A stretch of DNA of 61,894 nucleotides. Source: Candidatus Eisenbacteria bacterium (GTDB taxonomy: Bacteria > Eisenbacteria > RBG-16-71-46 > SZUA-252). The notes under the pieces are model-generated. The model made no database searches and was not told where the DNA came from. It saw only the letters and a program-made list of their open reading frames with translations. Of this stretch, positions 5,841 through 42,400 are shown piece after piece (the stretch's first letter is position 1; the number at the start of each line of letters is the position of its first letter). Made by a program: the position numbers and the translations under genes. The stretch covers positions 1-61,894 of the forward strand of contig VBOZ01000032.1 of NCBI GenBank assembly GCA_005893305.1. Reading direction: 5' to 3'.

Positions 5841-7432
5841 CGCCTTACGGTCGGGCGGCGCGTGCCGGGGAGCAGGTGGAGCCGGCGGACGTCGCGGAGC
5901 AGCCTGCGCGCCCAATCATAGATGTTTTGAGACGCCACCACGTCGCGCAGGGTCCGCATCCGCCGCGTGCGCTCCTCCGGCGGCATCGCGAGAGCGCGGT
6001 AGAGCGCGATGGCCAGGAGCTCGGTATCGTAGGGGCTCACCTGAATCGCGTGCTCGAGCTCGCGCGAGGCTCCGGTGTACGGACTCAGGATCAGCACGCC
6101 GTCCTCGTTCACCTTGGCCGCGACGTATTCCTTGGAGACGAGGTTCATCCCGTCGTGGAGGGACGTGACCGCCATGACGTCGGCGAGGACGTAGTAGGGA
6201 ATCAGATCCTTGAAATCGAGGTTCTCGGTGATGAGGTGGACGGACCGCCGGTCGCCCGAGCCGAAACGCTGGTTCAAGCGTTCCACCCGCTCCGCCACCG
6301 CGCGCCCCACGGCCTGATATTCCGGAAGGTCGACGCGGCTCGGGACCGCGACCAGGACCATCACGACCTTGTCGCGCAGCTCGGGGTGAGCGTCGAGCAT
6401 CCGCTCGTAGGCATCCAGGCGCTCCGGGATCCCCTTCGTGTAGTCGAGCCGGTCGACCCCGAGAATGACGCGCGCGTTGCCGAGGCCAAGCCGCTCGCGG
6501 ATGCGACGCACCGCGATCTCGGTCGATGAGGTCGCGGCCGTGAGGGAAATCTCCGCGACATCGGGGCTGATCGGGTAGTCGCGAACGTACGTGCGTTGTC
6601 CCGCGCGCCGGACCGCGATCCGCTCGCGGTCGACCAGGGCTTCCAGCTCCTGCGAGACGGTGTCGATGAAGTTCATCCCGTGGAATCGAATGTGAAATCC
6701 GAGGAGGTCGCACGCGAGGAGCCCCTCGAGGATCTCGCGCTTCCACGGGAGGATGCGGAAGACCTCCGGGTTGGGCCAGGGAATATGCCAGAACAGCACG
6801 GTCGTGAGATCGGGGCGGCGCTCGCGCAGCTCGGAGGCGACGAGCGCCAGGTGATAGTCCTGTAAGAGCACAAGCGCGGGCTCGTCGCCCGCCGCCTCGA
6901 TGATCGATTCGGCGAACTGGCGATTGACCTCCTGGTAGGCGCGCCACTGCGAGGCGACGAAGATCGGGCGCACGTAGACGACGTGGCAGAGAGGCCAGAG
7001 GCACCCGTTCGCGAAGCGATTGAAGCCCTCCGCGCGCTCCTCGTCCTCGATCCAGAGCCGCTGGAGCGTGTACCGCTCCTGGCCCGGCGGCATCTTGACG
7101 CGGCCGTGGTCGTCCACCACCTCGCGGTCGGCGTCGCCGGAAGCTTGAGCGACCCAGACGGCGCCGGTCGCCCGCGCCACCGAGTCGAGGGCCGAGGCGA
7201 GCCCGCCGGGGCTGCGAAGCGATTCGATCGTTCCGTTGCGGCGGACGTGCTGGTACGGCTCGCTCTTCGAAGCGATGATGATGCGCGTGGCGCCCAGGTA
7301 CTCGCGGACGCTCCGCCCGAGCTGCTCGGGCGTGGTCTGGCGAGCCAGGTCGCGCCGATGGGTTTCCTTCGCCGCGGCGCGGCCCGCCGCGCGCACCAGC
7401 TTTTCGTGAATTCGACCTCGCGGGGCCGGCAT
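5837..7432 (-). CDS. otsA: Alpha,alpha-trehalose-phosphate synthase (GT20)
   Basis: 531 residues. It joins glucose from a nucleotide sugar to glucose-6-phosphate. GT20 signatures are present: NGCLWPLCHVV, WRAYQEVNRQFAE, LLQDYHLALV, FWHIPWPNPEVFRILPWK, GFHIRFHGMNFIDTV, ILGVDRLDYTKGIPERL (the sugar-phosphate loop), and SLHDGMNLVSKEYVA and LSPYTGASREL at the donor site. It is somewhat longer at the N-terminus than enterobacterial OtsA (about 40 basic residues before the Rossmann start). It lies 21 bases after the CDP-alcohol transferase and overlaps otsB, so the two trehalose steps are translated together. Confidence 0.95.
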   Translation of the reverse strand: MPAPRGRIHEKLVRAAGRAAAKETHRRDLARQTTPEQLGRSVREYLGATRIIIASKSEPYQHVRRNGTIESLRSPGGLASALDSVARATGAVWVAQASGDADREVVDDHGRVKMPPGQERYTLQRLWIEDEERAEGFNRFANGCLWPLCHVVYVRPIFVASQWRAYQEVNRQFAESIIEAAGDEPALVLLQDYHLALVASELRERRPDLTTVLFWHIPWPNPEVFRILPWKREILEGLLACDLLGFHIRFHGMNFIDTVSQELEALVDRERIAVRRAGQRTYVRDYPISPDVAEISLTAATSSTEIAVRRIRERLGLGNARVILGVDRLDYTKGIPERLDAYERMLDAHPELRDKVVMVLVAVPSRVDLPEYQAVGRAVAERVERLNQRFGSGDRRSVHLITENLDFKDLIPYYVLADVMAVTSLHDGMNLVSKEYVAAKVNEDGVLILSPYTGASRELEHAIQVSPYDTELLAIALYRALAMPPEERTRRMRTLRDVVASQNIYDWARRLLRDVRRLHLLPGTRRPTVRR

Positions 7433-7453
7433 GGGGGCAGTGTAACCGATTCG

Positions 7454-8122
7454 CTAGCGCCGCTGCGGCTCGTCCTGGCTCAGCTGCCTCAGGTTTCGAA
7501 CGACTCGCCGCATCAGCATCCCCGCCATCGAGAGCGCGGCCGCGCTCCCCAGGACGTCGAAGACCGTGACCCCACGGCCGATCAGGTGGAACGGCAGCGG
7601 GCCGACGGTCAAGGCGAGCAGGTTCAGGCCGACCAGGATGATTCGCGCCTCCGTGGGTCCCATCACGCCGTACCCGAATCGGAACTTGCCGAATACGTGC
7701 GTCTCGAGGTAGACGTTGATCGAGAGCACGAGGTAAGCGATCACCATGGCGAGGCCGACCGCGAGCAGCATGTAGGGCGAGAACCCGAGGCCGAGCCCGA
7801 TGACGAGGGTCGAGTAGGCGTCCGTCAAGTGGTCGAGATAGAAGCCGTAGCGGGGACGCTCGATTTTCCGGAAGCGCGCGACGGTGCCGTCGAGGCTGTC
7901 GCCGAACCAGTGGACCAAGAGCCCCGCGTTCGCGAGCCAGAGCCAGTGCGGATTTCTGTTCGAGAGGCCGTAACCCGCCGCGATGACGGTCGCGCCGAGG
8001 ACTCCGAGCGCGGTGAGGTGGTCCGGGAGGACCCAACGCGGGAGGGCGGCCGCGAGTCGCGGCAGCGCCCATCGTTCGAACCGGGTCGTGATGAAGGTGG
8101 ATTGCCGCTCAGGCTCGGTCAC
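7454..8122 (-). CDS. CDP-alcohol phosphatidyltransferase family membrane protein
   Basis: 222 residues, GTG start overlapping the upstream stop (GTGA 8119-8122). The family signature is intact: D-SL-DG-TV-AR, nine residues, G-FYL-D-HLT-D, although the usual spacer between AR and G is eight. About six membrane helices surround it. Enzymes of this family move a phospho-alcohol from a CDP-linked donor to an acceptor alcohol (PgsA, PssA, inositol-phosphate synthases). The acceptor here is unknown. Its place between an envelope module and otsA suggests a phospholipid or a phosphorylated solute made with the trehalose genes, but that is a guess. Confidence 0.88.
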   Translation of the reverse strand: MTEPERQSTFITTRFERWALPRLAAALPRWVLPDHLTALGVLGATVIAAGYGLSNRNPHWLWLANAGLLVHWFGDSLDGTVARFRKIERPRYGFYLDHLTDAYSTLVIGLGLGFSPYMLLAVGLAMVIAYLVLSINVYLETHVFGKFRFGYGVMGPTEARIILVGLNLLALTVGPLPFHLIGRGVTVFDVLGSAAALSMAGMLMRRVVRNLRQLSQDEPQRR

Positions 8123-9294
8123 CGAGCCTTAGAGTTACTCCTGCTGTCGCGGGAATTCAAGGGCGGTGCGCCGGCGGGCGGCGGGTTGCCGGATGACGCG
8201 CCGGTGGGTACCGGTCCACTGGACGGCGGCCCGATGCGGACCGTCCCGCCGTCGGGCGCGTCCGACACGACCTCAGTCACGGCCTGGATCCGCGCCGGGT
8301 CGCCGAGCGCGATCTCGACGAGCGCCGCGTTCACGCGTCCCGCGAGCAAGCTCGCCTGCTCGTACGTCCGTGCGGTCGCCGTGACGCGGACCGGCTGTGT
8401 CAGGCGCGATGAGGCGTTGAGCCAGCCGGCGGCCTCGAGGATCACAGGCGGAACGGCTTTCGACGCCCCGTCCGCGCCCAGGCCGAACGAGCGGGCCGAT
8501 TTCATGGCGGCAAGGACGCTCTGGCCCGAGAAGACGAGGACGGGGCCGTCCGGAGAATCGAGCCGGTAGGCCGACACGCGGAAGCCCTGGCCCACGAAGT
8601 TGCGCTTGTTCCCGGCCTTGTCGTAAGCCTCGAAGATGTACGAGTAGGTGAGGCCCGGCGTGACGGGCGTGCCGTCCTGCGACCGACCGTCCCACGCGAT
8701 CTCCTTGGGCGGATCGCCCTTGCCGTGGAACGTGGTGACGGTTTGACCCTTCGAGTCGGCCACCATGAGCTTCCACCGCTCGACGTCCTTCACGTTGGGC
8801 TCGAATCGCGCTATGGGACCCGTGGCGAACTGGCTGAGCCATGGGTGCGCCAGATAGGGCGACGGGATATGTGCCGAGGTTCCGAGAAATCCGGTCATGA
8901 GGTCCGGAGGCACCCGGTTCAAGACGTCGCTCGCGGTTCCCGATTCAAGGCCGCCGACCTTCTCGGGATCGAGGTCGAGCGTGAGGGTCGGCCGATCGAT
9001 CTCGAGGTGCACGCGGTCTTCGCCCTCGACGGTCATCGTCCTGAAGTCGGTCCGCTCCTGGCCGCCTCGAAGCGTCATCCCGCTGTCGGGCGCCGCCTGA
9101 GACGAGGGGGCCGGCGCCGCATCCGCCTTCTGCTGCGAGGGTGGCTCGGTCGCCTGCTTCACCGCGGCCGCGGAGACCGGCGGCCGCTCGCCCGCGACGG
9201 CGCCCGAAACTCCGAGCAGCGAGACCGCGACCACCGCCGCGAGCCACGGAAGAGCCCGGGCCGCGCGCGCGTCAATGCATGGATGAGAACGCAT
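8119..9294 (-). CDS. Exported protein with a FlgD-like Ig domain
   Basis: 391 residues with a strong ribosome site (AAAGGAGGAG) before the ATG. It has a signal peptide (about residues 12-35), a low-complexity Pro/Ala/Gln stretch, then a domain around 170-245 with GQTVTTFHGKGDPPKEIAWDGR, DGTPVTPGLTYSYIFEAYDKAG. This is the FlgD Ig-like fold pattern of a W-DG-D/S core followed by P-G-Y-Y. The part after it (RVTATARTYEQASLLAGRVNAALVEIAL) looks like the peptidoglycan-directed half of OmpA-like proteins in spacing but lacks a clear motif. It probably acts in the periplasm or outer membrane with the TonB/PorV genes upstream. Confidence 0.78.
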   Translation of the reverse strand: MRSHPCIDARAARALPWLAAVVAVSLLGVSGAVAGERPPVSAAAVKQATEPPSQQKADAAPAPSSQAAPDSGMTLRGGQERTDFRTMTVEGEDRVHLEIDRPTLTLDLDPEKVGGLESGTASDVLNRVPPDLMTGFLGTSAHIPSPYLAHPWLSQFATGPIARFEPNVKDVERWKLMVADSKGQTVTTFHGKGDPPKEIAWDGRSQDGTPVTPGLTYSYIFEAYDKAGNKRNFVGQGFRVSAYRLDSPDGPVLVFSGQSVLAAMKSARSFGLGADGASKAVPPVILEAAGWLNASSRLTQPVRVTATARTYEQASLLAGRVNAALVEIALGDPARIQAVTEVVSDAPDGGTVRIGPPSSGPVPTGASSGNPPPAGAPPLNSRDSRSNSKAR

Positions 9295-39207: not shown

Positions 39208-39810
39208 GTGAAATCGATCACACGCACCCGAGGTCGCGCCACGGCACGCACGAAGTCCCGCGGCAAGACCGGAGCCCGCCGGCGCTCGCGGCCCAAGCTT
39301 CGCCGCGAATTCGCCGACTACATTCGGAAGATCGACACCTATCGGGGAGGTCGTCCCGCGATGCCGCTCCTTCGCACCGGGCCGGGCAAGATCGCGCGGG
39401 CCGTCCAGGGCCTCACCCCCAGCCAGGTCCGCCGCCGCCCGGCGCGCGGGAAGTGGAGCATCTCCGAGATCGTGGGCCACCTGCTCGACACGGAGATCGT
39501 CTACGGCTTCCGGTGCCGGATGGCGCTCTCGGAGTCAGGGCGGCCGGTCCAGGCGTACAACCAGACGGTTTGGACGGAAACCCTCCGCCACCGCCGGCGG
39601 AGCGTGCCGCGAACCGTCGCGCAGATCCAGCTGCTACGGAAGATCAACCTCGAGCTGGTCGGCTCCGTGCCGCGGCGGACGTGGAAGCGCTACGGGGAGC
39701 ATCCGGAGCGGGGACGGGAAACCGTGCGCAGGACCCTGGAGCTGGTCGCGGGGCACGATCTGAATCACCTGGACCAGATCCAAGCGATCAAGAAGAAGTT
39801 CGGCTGGTAG
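39208..39810 (+). CDS. DinB-superfamily protein
   Basis: 200 residues from a GTG at 39208, chosen for AAGGAG before it. About 40 basic residues precede the domain. DinB-like four-helix fold: WSISEIVGHLLDTEIVYGFRCRMAL, a middle helix LLRKINLELVGSV, then TLELVAGHDLNHLDQIQAI. The conserved metal-binding histidines are in GHLLD and GHDLNHLDQI. Members include thiol-S-transferases and DNA-damage-inducible proteins; function is not predicted. The Arg/Lys-rich front (KSITRTRGRATARTKSRGK) may bind nucleic acid or be a disordered tail. Confidence 0.85.
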   Translation: MKSITRTRGRATARTKSRGKTGARRRSRPKLRREFADYIRKIDTYRGGRPAMPLLRTGPGKIARAVQGLTPSQVRRRPARGKWSISEIVGHLLDTEIVYGFRCRMALSESGRPVQAYNQTVWTETLRHRRRSVPRTVAQIQLLRKINLELVGSVPRRTWKRYGEHPERGRETVRRTLELVAGHDLNHLDQIQAIKKKFGW

Positions 39811-39837
39811 CGGGAAGTCGCTCGCGGTGAAGCCGAG

Positions 39838-40482
39838 TCAGCTTCGACGCGCCGTTCGTGCGGGCCTTGTGTGGCCTGTTAATCGCTGAATGCATGCGAC
39901 GCACCGCGCAAGACTGTCGGCAGACCGCATGGCGATTGCCGGGCGCCACTGTGACCTTCGGCCAGTCACAAATTCGATTAGCATGGACGTGTAGGATGCG
40001 CCGACGGCGCGCCCGCTCCGAGCACTGGGCACCATCCCCATGCGGATCACGTCGCTCCGAGAATGCCTGGCTAGGTCTACCATCGCAATCTTTGCATTGG
40101 CAATGGATTCGGGATTACGCGGGACCCTAGACAGGGGGACCGAGAGAAATGTTGAGATTCGATCTCGGTCAGCAAATAGCCAAGCCTCTATCTCTCGGAC
40201 GGCGATGCGGAAGCACAACCGAGCGGGCTCCTCAGGTAGGACGGACTGTTTCAGCTCCGAGGCGCACAGGAAATCCTGGTCCAAGTCAATCAGGACAACC
40301 CAGGGGGCATATCTCGCTGCCCGAACATATCCAGGCAGCCTTTGAAGGAGATGATCCTTCCCGTGTCCTCCGTATATCTGACTCGCCACACCTCCAGCGA
40401 ACGCAACCACTCGCCTGAGTATCGCCTCATCCAGTAAACCTTCCACTGCACCAGATATGGTCACTCGTTGAAGCTGGGCCAC
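39838..40482 (-). CDS. TOPRIM-like nuclease candidate paired with an AAA ATPase
   Basis: 214 residues, GTG start three bases after the ATPase stop. The pattern matches the TOPRIM-like DUF4276/OLD-type partner: GAVEGLLDEAILRRVV (Glu14), then VVLIDLDQD (Asp66, Asp68, Asp70), then AVREIEAWLFAD (Glu97, Glu99). These acidic residues would bind magnesium for nucleic-acid cleavage. Similar two-gene sets (an ABC-type ATPase of the AAA15/21 class plus a TOPRIM protein) make up anti-phage systems such as AbiL and PARIS. I cannot assign this pair to a named system. Base composition is clearly lower in GC than the flanks. Confidence 0.65.
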   Translation of the reverse strand: MAQLQRVTISGAVEGLLDEAILRRVVAFAGGVASQIYGGHGKDHLLQRLPGYVRAARYAPWVVLIDLDQDFLCASELKQSVLPEEPARLCFRIAVREIEAWLFADRDRISTFLSVPLSRVPRNPESIANAKIAMVDLARHSRSDVIRMGMVPSARSGRAVGASYTSMLIEFVTGRRSQWRPAIAMRSADSLARCVACIQRLTGHTRPARTARRS

Positions 40483-40485
40483 TAG

Positions 40486-41625
40486 CTAGTCGCCAAAAAT
40501 ACCGAGCTGTTCTGCTCTTGCGGGTCGCGTCCATGGCAGCACAGCTTCTGCAATGCTCAACCCACCCTTCAAGAGTTCTCGAATTTCCTTCAACTTCTCC
40601 GCTTGACGAATGCTAGTGCCCTCGTTGCCCGGGATCAGCAACAGGACTTCATCAAGTCCTATCCCCGTGTCCTGGAGTAAGTCCGTAGAGTGCGTGCTAA
40701 CGAAGACTTGCCTGCTTGAGCGGCGCTGAATGCGAGCCAAAAGCTGCGGCACAAACCTCACGACGTCGGGGTGTAGGGACATTTCGGGCTCCTCCAGCAA
40801 TAGTGGCCCGGAGCCGTCAAGTGTCGCCCACAGTAGTCCCAAGAGGCGCAAGGTTCCGTCCGAAAACTGGTCCTCAGATTGCCAAGCTCCCTGTGGCCGC
40901 CAGTGGACGTACCTACCTTGGAGATGGGGAGTCCCGCGAGAGTCTCTTGAGAGCTTAAGCTCTCGAAGCTGTGGTACAGCAAGTCGAAGTGCATCTTGAA
41001 TCTTTCGAAGCCGTGCTGCTCGGACACCTGCAGGCGTTCGAGCAATTTGCTCGAGGAAGTCACCGCCATACGGATCATCCTGTCTTCCGACTGAGCGGTC
41101 CGGATCCCGGACAAGCTGAGGGACGATGTGCAGGTAGCGAACAGTTCGGAGGTAATCCACAATTGGCCGGAATTTGCGGTTGACGTTGACTTGCTCCAGA
41201 AACGTTTGAGTGAGTCGCTCCGGGTCCTTCTCATCTGCGATATTCGGTCTTGTGAGCACCGGGATACCGTCTCTGGTTACTTTTTCAACCATGACGATTG
41301 CTCTTTGGCGGTTGTCCTGGGTGAAATGGACCTCATAGGTCCACCTCGGGTCGACGCCATTGTCTTCACCCATTTCGGCTTTGATCGCCACATTCGGAAA
41401 TCGACGCGCGGCCAGACAGCGGAGTTTTGAGATGCCTCCCCGCCGGCGCACTGCCTCCTGGAAGCCACCTCCAACAGCAACGATGTCGTGCAGAAATCTA
41501 AAAACATCCAGAAGATTTGACTTCCCAGAGGCATTCGGGCCGACCACGAATACCCTCTGCGTTAGCGCGACCTCTGCCTTCGCGAAGTTACGCCAATTTT
41601 CAAGATGGAGATTAGTAAACCGCAT
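40486..41625 (-). CDS. AAA-family ATPase (SMC/ABC-type, AAA_21-like), defence-type
   Basis: 379 residues with AGGAG before the ATG. Walker A VVGPNASGKSNLLDVF (Lys35), a central insert of about 200 residues, the ABC-like signature SDGTLRLLGLLWATL, Walker B GPLLLEEPEMSLHPDVV and the switch histidine in VFVSTHSTDLL. It lacks a nuclease domain of its own; the partner gene supplies a TOPRIM-like one. The DNA is A+T richer than surrounding genes (28 of the 60 bases from 41281 are G or C). The pair lies 40 bases after the GATase gene, so it could share its transcript. It is most likely an acquired defence module (inference). Confidence 0.85.
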   Translation of the reverse strand: MRFTNLHLENWRNFAKAEVALTQRVFVVGPNASGKSNLLDVFRFLHDIVAVGGGFQEAVRRRGGISKLRCLAARRFPNVAIKAEMGEDNGVDPRWTYEVHFTQDNRQRAIVMVEKVTRDGIPVLTRPNIADEKDPERLTQTFLEQVNVNRKFRPIVDYLRTVRYLHIVPQLVRDPDRSVGRQDDPYGGDFLEQIARTPAGVRAARLRKIQDALRLAVPQLRELKLSRDSRGTPHLQGRYVHWRPQGAWQSEDQFSDGTLRLLGLLWATLDGSGPLLLEEPEMSLHPDVVRFVPQLLARIQRRSSRQVFVSTHSTDLLQDTGIGLDEVLLLIPGNEGTSIRQAEKLKEIRELLKGGLSIAEAVLPWTRPARAEQLGIFGD

Positions 41626-41665
41626 CCACGCTCCTGGAGAAGATCTTAGGGTGAGAATTGGATCC

Positions 41666-42400
41666 TTATCTTGTGATCTGCGCTCCGCGGGCCGCGTCGA
41701 GGAACGCGCCCATCAAGCGGCGGGTCGACGGCGCGTCGGGCATCCGCTCGGGGTGCCACTGAATGCCGACGTAGAACGGGTGGTCGGTCCGCTCGATCGC
41801 CTCGATCACCCCGTCGGGGCTTCGCGCTGCCACCCGGAACCCTGGCGCGACGCGATCGACCGATTGATGATGGAACGAATTGACGACCCCGGGCCCCTCG
41901 CCGAGGATCCGCGCGAGGAGCGTTCCGGGCTCGAGCGCGACGGCGTGCTCGGGCGCGCCGGCTTTCTCGTCACCCTCCTCCTCGTGACCGAGCGCTCCGG
42001 GCAGGTCCTCCGGAATGTGCTGGAGCAGCGTTCCCCCGAACTCCACGTTCATCACCTGAACACCCAGGCAGATCCCGAGCGTCGGCGTCCCGCGCTCTTG
42101 GGCGGCGCGCGCGAGATAGAGATCGGACGCGTTTCGGGCCGGGGAGCCGAGCGAGTCGGGGTGACGGGTCGACTGGCCGTACCGCGTCGCCTCGAGGTCC
42201 TTGCCGCCGGTTAAGAGGAGCCCGTCGACGCGGCCCACCATCTCGCGCGCCTCTTCGAGCGTGGAGACAAGCGGCAGGATCGTCGGCATCGCGCCGCTCC
42301 GAGAGACCAGATCGACGTAGCTCGCCAGCAGGAAGTAGGCGTCGCCGCGGTTTTTGGTCGGCCGGATGTTGGGGCCGACGCCGATCAGTGGTTTCGCCAT
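41666..42400 (-). CDS. Gamma-glutamyl-gamma-aminobutyrate hydrolase family (class I glutamine amidotransferase-like)
   Basis: 244 residues from the ATG at 42400; a longer frame to 42700 runs through the end of the dehydrogenase gene. PuuD-like motifs: GLLLTGGKDLEATRYG, TLGICLGVQVMNVEFGG with the nucleophile Cys, and YVGIQWHPER with the catalytic His and Glu. It cleaves gamma-glutamyl amides. It sits 14 bases downstream of the dehydrogenase gene and probably belongs to the operon starting at 45961. Confidence 0.9.
   Translation of the reverse strand: MAKPLIGVGPNIRPTKNRGDAYFLLASYVDLVSRSGAMPTILPLVSTLEEAREMVGRVDGLLLTGGKDLEATRYGQSTRHPDSLGSPARNASDLYLARAAQERGTPTLGICLGVQVMNVEFGGTLLQHIPEDLPGALGHEEEGDEKAGAPEHAVALEPGTLLARILGEGPGVVNSFHHQSVDRVAPGFRVAARSPDGVIEAIERTDHPFYVGIQWHPERMPDAPSTRRLMGAFLDAARGAQITR

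Follow-up and report, generated by a model that had tools for sequence, protein, structure and literature searches.

The locus described here raises the question of whether a low-GC pair of genes, one for an ATPase and one for a small companion protein, is an anti-phage defence module, and if so of which kind and by what route it entered this genome. In the window (the whole 61,894-nucleotide stretch that was analysed), the coordinates given by the sequence-only reading for the two genes agree with ours, and the strand, which it omitted, is minus for both (Table 1). Upstream of HEC-01A, direct reading gives CCAGGAGCGTGG followed by the ATG start; HEC-01B starts with GTG three bases past the HEC-01A stop codon, in the same frame, and its residue 7, also encoded by GTG, is an alternative start. 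We conclude that the pair is one more, typical copy of the catalogued candidate anti-phage system HEC-01. It quite probably represents a stand-alone, horizontally acquired candidate HEC-01 in which an AriA/AriB-like ATPase sensor would act with a TOPRIM nuclease, the nuclease step being one that we infer by analogy.

Table 1. Features of the HEC-01 locus, in window coordinates
Feature	Position	Strand	Evidence
HEC-01A: ABC/AAA_21 ATPase, 379 aa	40486-41625	minus	PADLOC, Pfam, AlphaFold2, Foldseek
HEC-01B: DUF4276-like, probable TOPRIM-type nuclease, 214 aa	39838-40482	minus	PADLOC, profile-profile, AlphaFold2
Putative ribosome-binding site (AGGAG) of HEC-01A	41626-41645	minus	direct sequence reading
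Low-GC insertion between two conserved flanking genes	39808-41668	.	site empty in five relatives

Searched against the models of PADLOC-DB v2.0.0, a kind of check that had been proposed, both proteins match the same system, HEC-01, over nearly their full length. HEC-01A matches its model PDLC04180 (E = 2.5e-157, residues 1-375 of 379) and HEC-01B matches PDLC04194 (E = 1.3e-55, residues 7-204 of 214), and the gene order and adjacency are also those of HEC-01; the earlier suggestion of a possibly new subtype is not borne out by these matches. HEC denotes Hma-embedded candidate (PMC12988326, PMC10855318), Hma being the helicase-methylase-ATPase operon (PMC8565338), and PMC12988326 describes several HECs, including HEC-06, as antiviral. 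HEC-01A carries all the ABC-type elements that had been read in it, namely Walker A GPNASGKS (29-36), signature SDGT (255-258), Walker B LLLEEPE (275-281) and the switch histidine His312, and K35, E278, E279 and H312 are conserved at 99-100% in 77 aligned sequences. In HEC-01B the three acid motifs are likewise present, VEG at 13-15, DLDQD at 66-70 and EIEAW at 97-101, with G15, D18, D66 and D105 invariant and E14 and E99 at 97% among 65 aligned sequences. The motifs of the two proteins are far beyond chance.

The sequence-only reading had likened the pair to AbiL, PARIS and OLD/Gabija. HEC-01A matches Pfam AAA_21 (E = 1.2e-31) and, in PADLOC, the AAA_21-type AriA model (E = 8.7e-32), the AbiLi model (E = 8.6e-21) and the MAD3 model (E = 3.8e-18), but the HEC-01A model is far better for this ATPase than the AriA model, and the matches to AbiLi and MAD3 are also far weaker than that to HEC-01A. 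Zero NCBIfam models reach their own cut-off for the pair. Membership in MADS was rejected at 71.3 bits for MAD3 in NCBIfam versus a curated cut-off of 420, and membership in AbiL was rejected because AbiLi falls far below HEC-01A and the PADLOC matches of HEC-01B include no AbiLii model. OLD and GajA share with the pair an SMC-like ATPase head and TOPRIM-type acid motifs, but they hold both domains in one protein, whereas HEC-01 splits them between two genes; Gabija moreover needs the helicase GajB, and none adjoins the window pair, whose neighbours are the two flanking genes described below. A similar layout is that of PARIS, which has, in one operon, separate genes for an ABC ATPase and a TOPRIM-type protein, the latter being the likely nature of HEC-01B. 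However, HEC-01B has no match to DUF4435, the AriB family, in Pfam and none to the AriB model in PADLOC. The split two-gene layout is shared with PARIS, and membership in PARIS, Gabija or AbiL is not upheld.

Homologues were searched in one genome per species, and the best 80 of 103 confirmed loci were taken. ATPase identity to these 80 is 48-70%, and they come from about 22 phyla. HEC-01B was found at 70 of the 80; three of the ten loci without it are cut off by a contig end, so that it adjoins HEC-01A in 70 of the 77 that are not. Where HEC-01B is intact, the spacing between the two genes is -17 to +13 nt, often with overlap. In four loci (L015, L021, L026 and L032) HEC-01B is shortened or frame-broken beside an intact HEC-01A, which reflects either decay or assembly error. 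Distances among HEC-01A and among HEC-01B sequences are correlated over 63 pairs (Mantel r = 0.76; largest of 2000 permutations 0.36), which shows that the genes travel together; shared ancestry suffices for such a correlation, and contact between the proteins is not implied by it. In the tree of HEC-01A the roughly 22 phyla are mixed, and there are well-supported cross-phylum pairs, for example Bipolaricaulota with Planctomycetota. A few of these pairs could stem from binning errors in metagenome assemblies, but hardly all of them. No match for HEC-01A or HEC-01B was found in 72,556 plasmid records, nor any for HEC-01B in the phage collections, where HEC-01A has one distant record (27.6% identity). 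IMG/VR gave 12 matches, four of them at 48-59% identity and two with an adjacent HEC-01B. On one IMG/VR contig (L143, 8001-10443), the place after HEC-01A is taken by another AAA ATPase, with no detectable HEC-01B there, and the next gene looks by eye like one for a methyltransferase.

It is also evident that sister copies are linked to Hma. Genes beside the homologues were predicted with a simple custom ORF score, and eight large neighbours, chosen by size, were scanned. At L034, HmaA lies directly upstream of the pair (E = 7.3e-190) and HmaB directly downstream (E = 5.1e-127); HmaA is upstream at L031, HmaB is downstream at L004, L062 and L012, and a type I restriction subunit is downstream at L025. 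When the HmaA and HmaB proteins found beside homologues were used as tblastn queries, HmaA or HmaB was detected in the fetched flank of 18 of the best 80 of 103 loci (raw count), and in most of these 18 the pair sits between HmaA and HmaB. Both genes are present in 13 of the 59 loci, among these 80, whose flanks extend 1.5 kb or more on each side. The embedding in Hma for which HEC is named is thus seen in sister loci, and the window copy differs from it in being solo, without adjoining Hma genes; in its genome HmaB finds no match, and HmaA finds only partial ones of the helicase type. The majority of the best 80 of 103 loci have no Hma gene beside them. The pair bears on whether HEC-01 can function on its own in addition to functioning within Hma loci. 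Directly upstream of the HEC-01 pair at one locus (L060, 1643-5917) is the gene for a protein kinase of 1425 aa that has WD40 repeats and matches the defence-system kinase models PD-T4-6 and MAD6.

How the pair entered this genome can be read from its relatives. The ATPase is absent from all eight other genomes of the same family (completeness about 80% in two and 91-99% in the rest), and the two flanking genes, named by eye as DinB-like and class-I glutamine amidotransferase, are conserved in relatives. In five of these the site is empty, the flanking genes being about 42 nt apart in G002, of the same genus, and about 31, 31, 7 and 66 nt apart in G003, G006, G004 and G007, respectively. The pair was therefore gained as a bare two-gene insertion of about 1.9 kb and low GC. 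The insert holds these two genes alone, with neither integrase nor transposase, in line with the earlier remark that no mobile element was seen. The dip in GC noticed by eye is real, at 56.5% for the pair versus 67.0% for the whole window, and the hand counts behind it (28/60 and 40/60) match the sequence; elsewhere in the window, the GC of 1788-bp stretches never falls below 58.7%, and GC3 is 0.58-0.60 in the pair versus about 0.86 in two neighbouring genes. In two other relatives, G001 (L106) and G005 (L107), other genes of native GC lie between the flanking genes: in G001 what looks by eye like a methyltransferase plus a further small protein, and in G005 an RsgA-like GTPase, also named by eye. 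The gap may be a recurrent insertion site. The pair is an unremarkable example of a candidate defence system that is already catalogued, and its gain is well documented and clean: two genes and nothing else entered a metabolic gene neighbourhood, with no adjoining mobile element and an empty site in relatives.

The same data bear on two other accounts of the pair. If HEC-01A were a RecF/Rad50-like ATPase with a housekeeping role in DNA repair and HEC-01B its companion, its SMC/Rad50-like head and a weak RecF match in NCBIfam would be accounted for, but that match reaches 28.9 bits against a cut-off of 172, which led us to reject RecF-type repair; no housekeeping profile reaches its cut-off, the pair is missing from 8 of 8 family genomes and phyla are mixed on the tree, and we regard this account as very improbable. 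A repair-family profile or lineage-wide synteny had been named as what would overturn the defence reading, and neither was found, the pair being absent from all family relatives searched. Alternatively, the pair could be toxin-antitoxin-like or stabilise a plasmid or other element, so that its gain was selfish and phage defence a side effect at most; it is small, translationally coupled and patchy, as such a pair would be, but the plasmid records hold no match, the insert carries no mobile-element genes and the pair repeatedly sits inside Hma operons, and a selfish origin appears quite unlikely. A defence module, as first proposed, is instead well supported by the PADLOC matches, the patchy spread across phyla, the empty site and the sister copies between HmaA and HmaB.

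Whether the second protein is TOPRIM-like, as the sequence-only reading held, is less direct. The sole Pfam match of HEC-01B is DUF4276, under cut-off (E = 7.7e-5); a literature text search for "DUF4276" gave no match. Its AlphaFold2 model is a confident alpha/beta fold (pLDDT 94.5), with E14 just past strand 1 (8-12), D66 and D68 closing strand 3 (61-66) and E99 after strand 4. A Glu after strand 1, a DxD ending strand 3 and an acid after strand 4 make up the metal-site layout of TOPRIM domains, and the predicted structure of HEC-01B has the Glu after strand 1 and the DxD at the end of strand 3. A Foldseek search against PDB and viral structures gave no match below E = 1e-3, the weak matches including topoisomerase I, the RNase M5 TOPRIM and an RloB-like protein, and no relative was found among solved structures when HEC-01B was used as a single sequence and as a profile. 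Aligned profile to profile with OLD TOPRIM domains taken from other genomes, HEC-01B reaches a score of 37.3 (probability 72%; P = 3.5e-5, taken as a single comparison), with VEG paired to VEG and DLD to the DxD region. The highest score among 100 control profiles, of which 99 had shuffled columns and one reversed columns, is 15.0, and response regulators, whose fold is also Rossmann-like, score 13.6. The comparison with DUF4435 is weak, at 21.8 versus a control maximum of 19.5 for a set of only five DUF4435 proteins, and aligns EIEAWL to a similar E-rich motif of these proteins; no DUF4435 was found in the window's class. The TOPRIM-like reading is thus backed by profile-profile comparison and not by the fold search, and TOPRIM kinship of HEC-01B appears likely, short of proof. 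The pair bears on whether DUF4276-type proteins are AriB-like TOPRIM nucleases.

Among split pairs of this kind, PARIS is understood best. Its ATPase AriA senses a phage protein and sets free AriB, a TOPRIM protein that acts as a two-metal nuclease and cuts tRNA (PMC12409363). By analogy, HEC-01 would most likely work like PARIS, yet we do not file it as a PARIS member. The AlphaFold2 model of HEC-01A (pLDDT 92) has PtuA, GajA, OLD, Rad50 and Smc heads as its Foldseek relatives, the AriA chains among solved structures being weak matches. Because the model resembles PtuA, GajA, OLD and Rad50/SMC heads, ATP-driven dimerisation is expected, and HEC-01A, as an ABC ATPase of the SMC/Rad50/OLD type, would probably serve as sensor and switch. 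HEC-01B, as a divergent TOPRIM-like protein, would probably cut nucleic acid with metal ions bound at E14, D66/D68 and E99. On the AriA/AriB model, HEC-01A may hold or gate HEC-01B in a complex; a phage trigger would free or activate HEC-01B, which might then cut host tRNA or another nucleic acid, so that infection would be stopped abortively. A different outcome would follow if HEC-01A and HEC-01B together formed a split OLD nuclease that degrades invading DNA directly, as in OLD or Gabija, instead of a gated tRNase that aborts infection. HEC-01B gives a better alignment with OLD TOPRIM domains than with DUF4435, HEC-01A resembles the GajA and OLD heads, and OLD enzymes cut DNA (PMC10568477); however, a Gabija-type helicase partner is absent and the domains are split as in PARIS, and we consider direct DNA degradation possible but somewhat unlikely.

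The ATPase and the presumed nuclease that it would gate are not always kept together. Five Acidobacteriota loci (L063, L064, L068, L071 and L078, about 5950-8700 in each) group in a single clade (support 100%) that branches from within loci carrying HEC-01B, and none of them has HEC-01B next to HEC-01A; the HEC-01B profile finds no convincing match in their genomes either (best E = 0.08). The catalytic residues of HEC-01A that were checked are all kept, except for D256G in L071. These results suggest a single loss of the nuclease with retention of the ATPase, and HEC-01A may do something by itself. On a wider and rather speculative reading, which we think doubtful, HEC-01 would be a mobile sensor/effector cartridge used both alone and in Hma or restriction operons, HEC-01B would be a distinct TOPRIM class (DUF4276) with a target of its own, e.g., tRNA, and the ATPase would have been kept, in the absence of the nuclease, for a cellular role in this one Acidobacteriota lineage. 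In all five Acidobacteriota loci, HEC-01A is followed by a gene that was named by eye as an M16-type peptidase.
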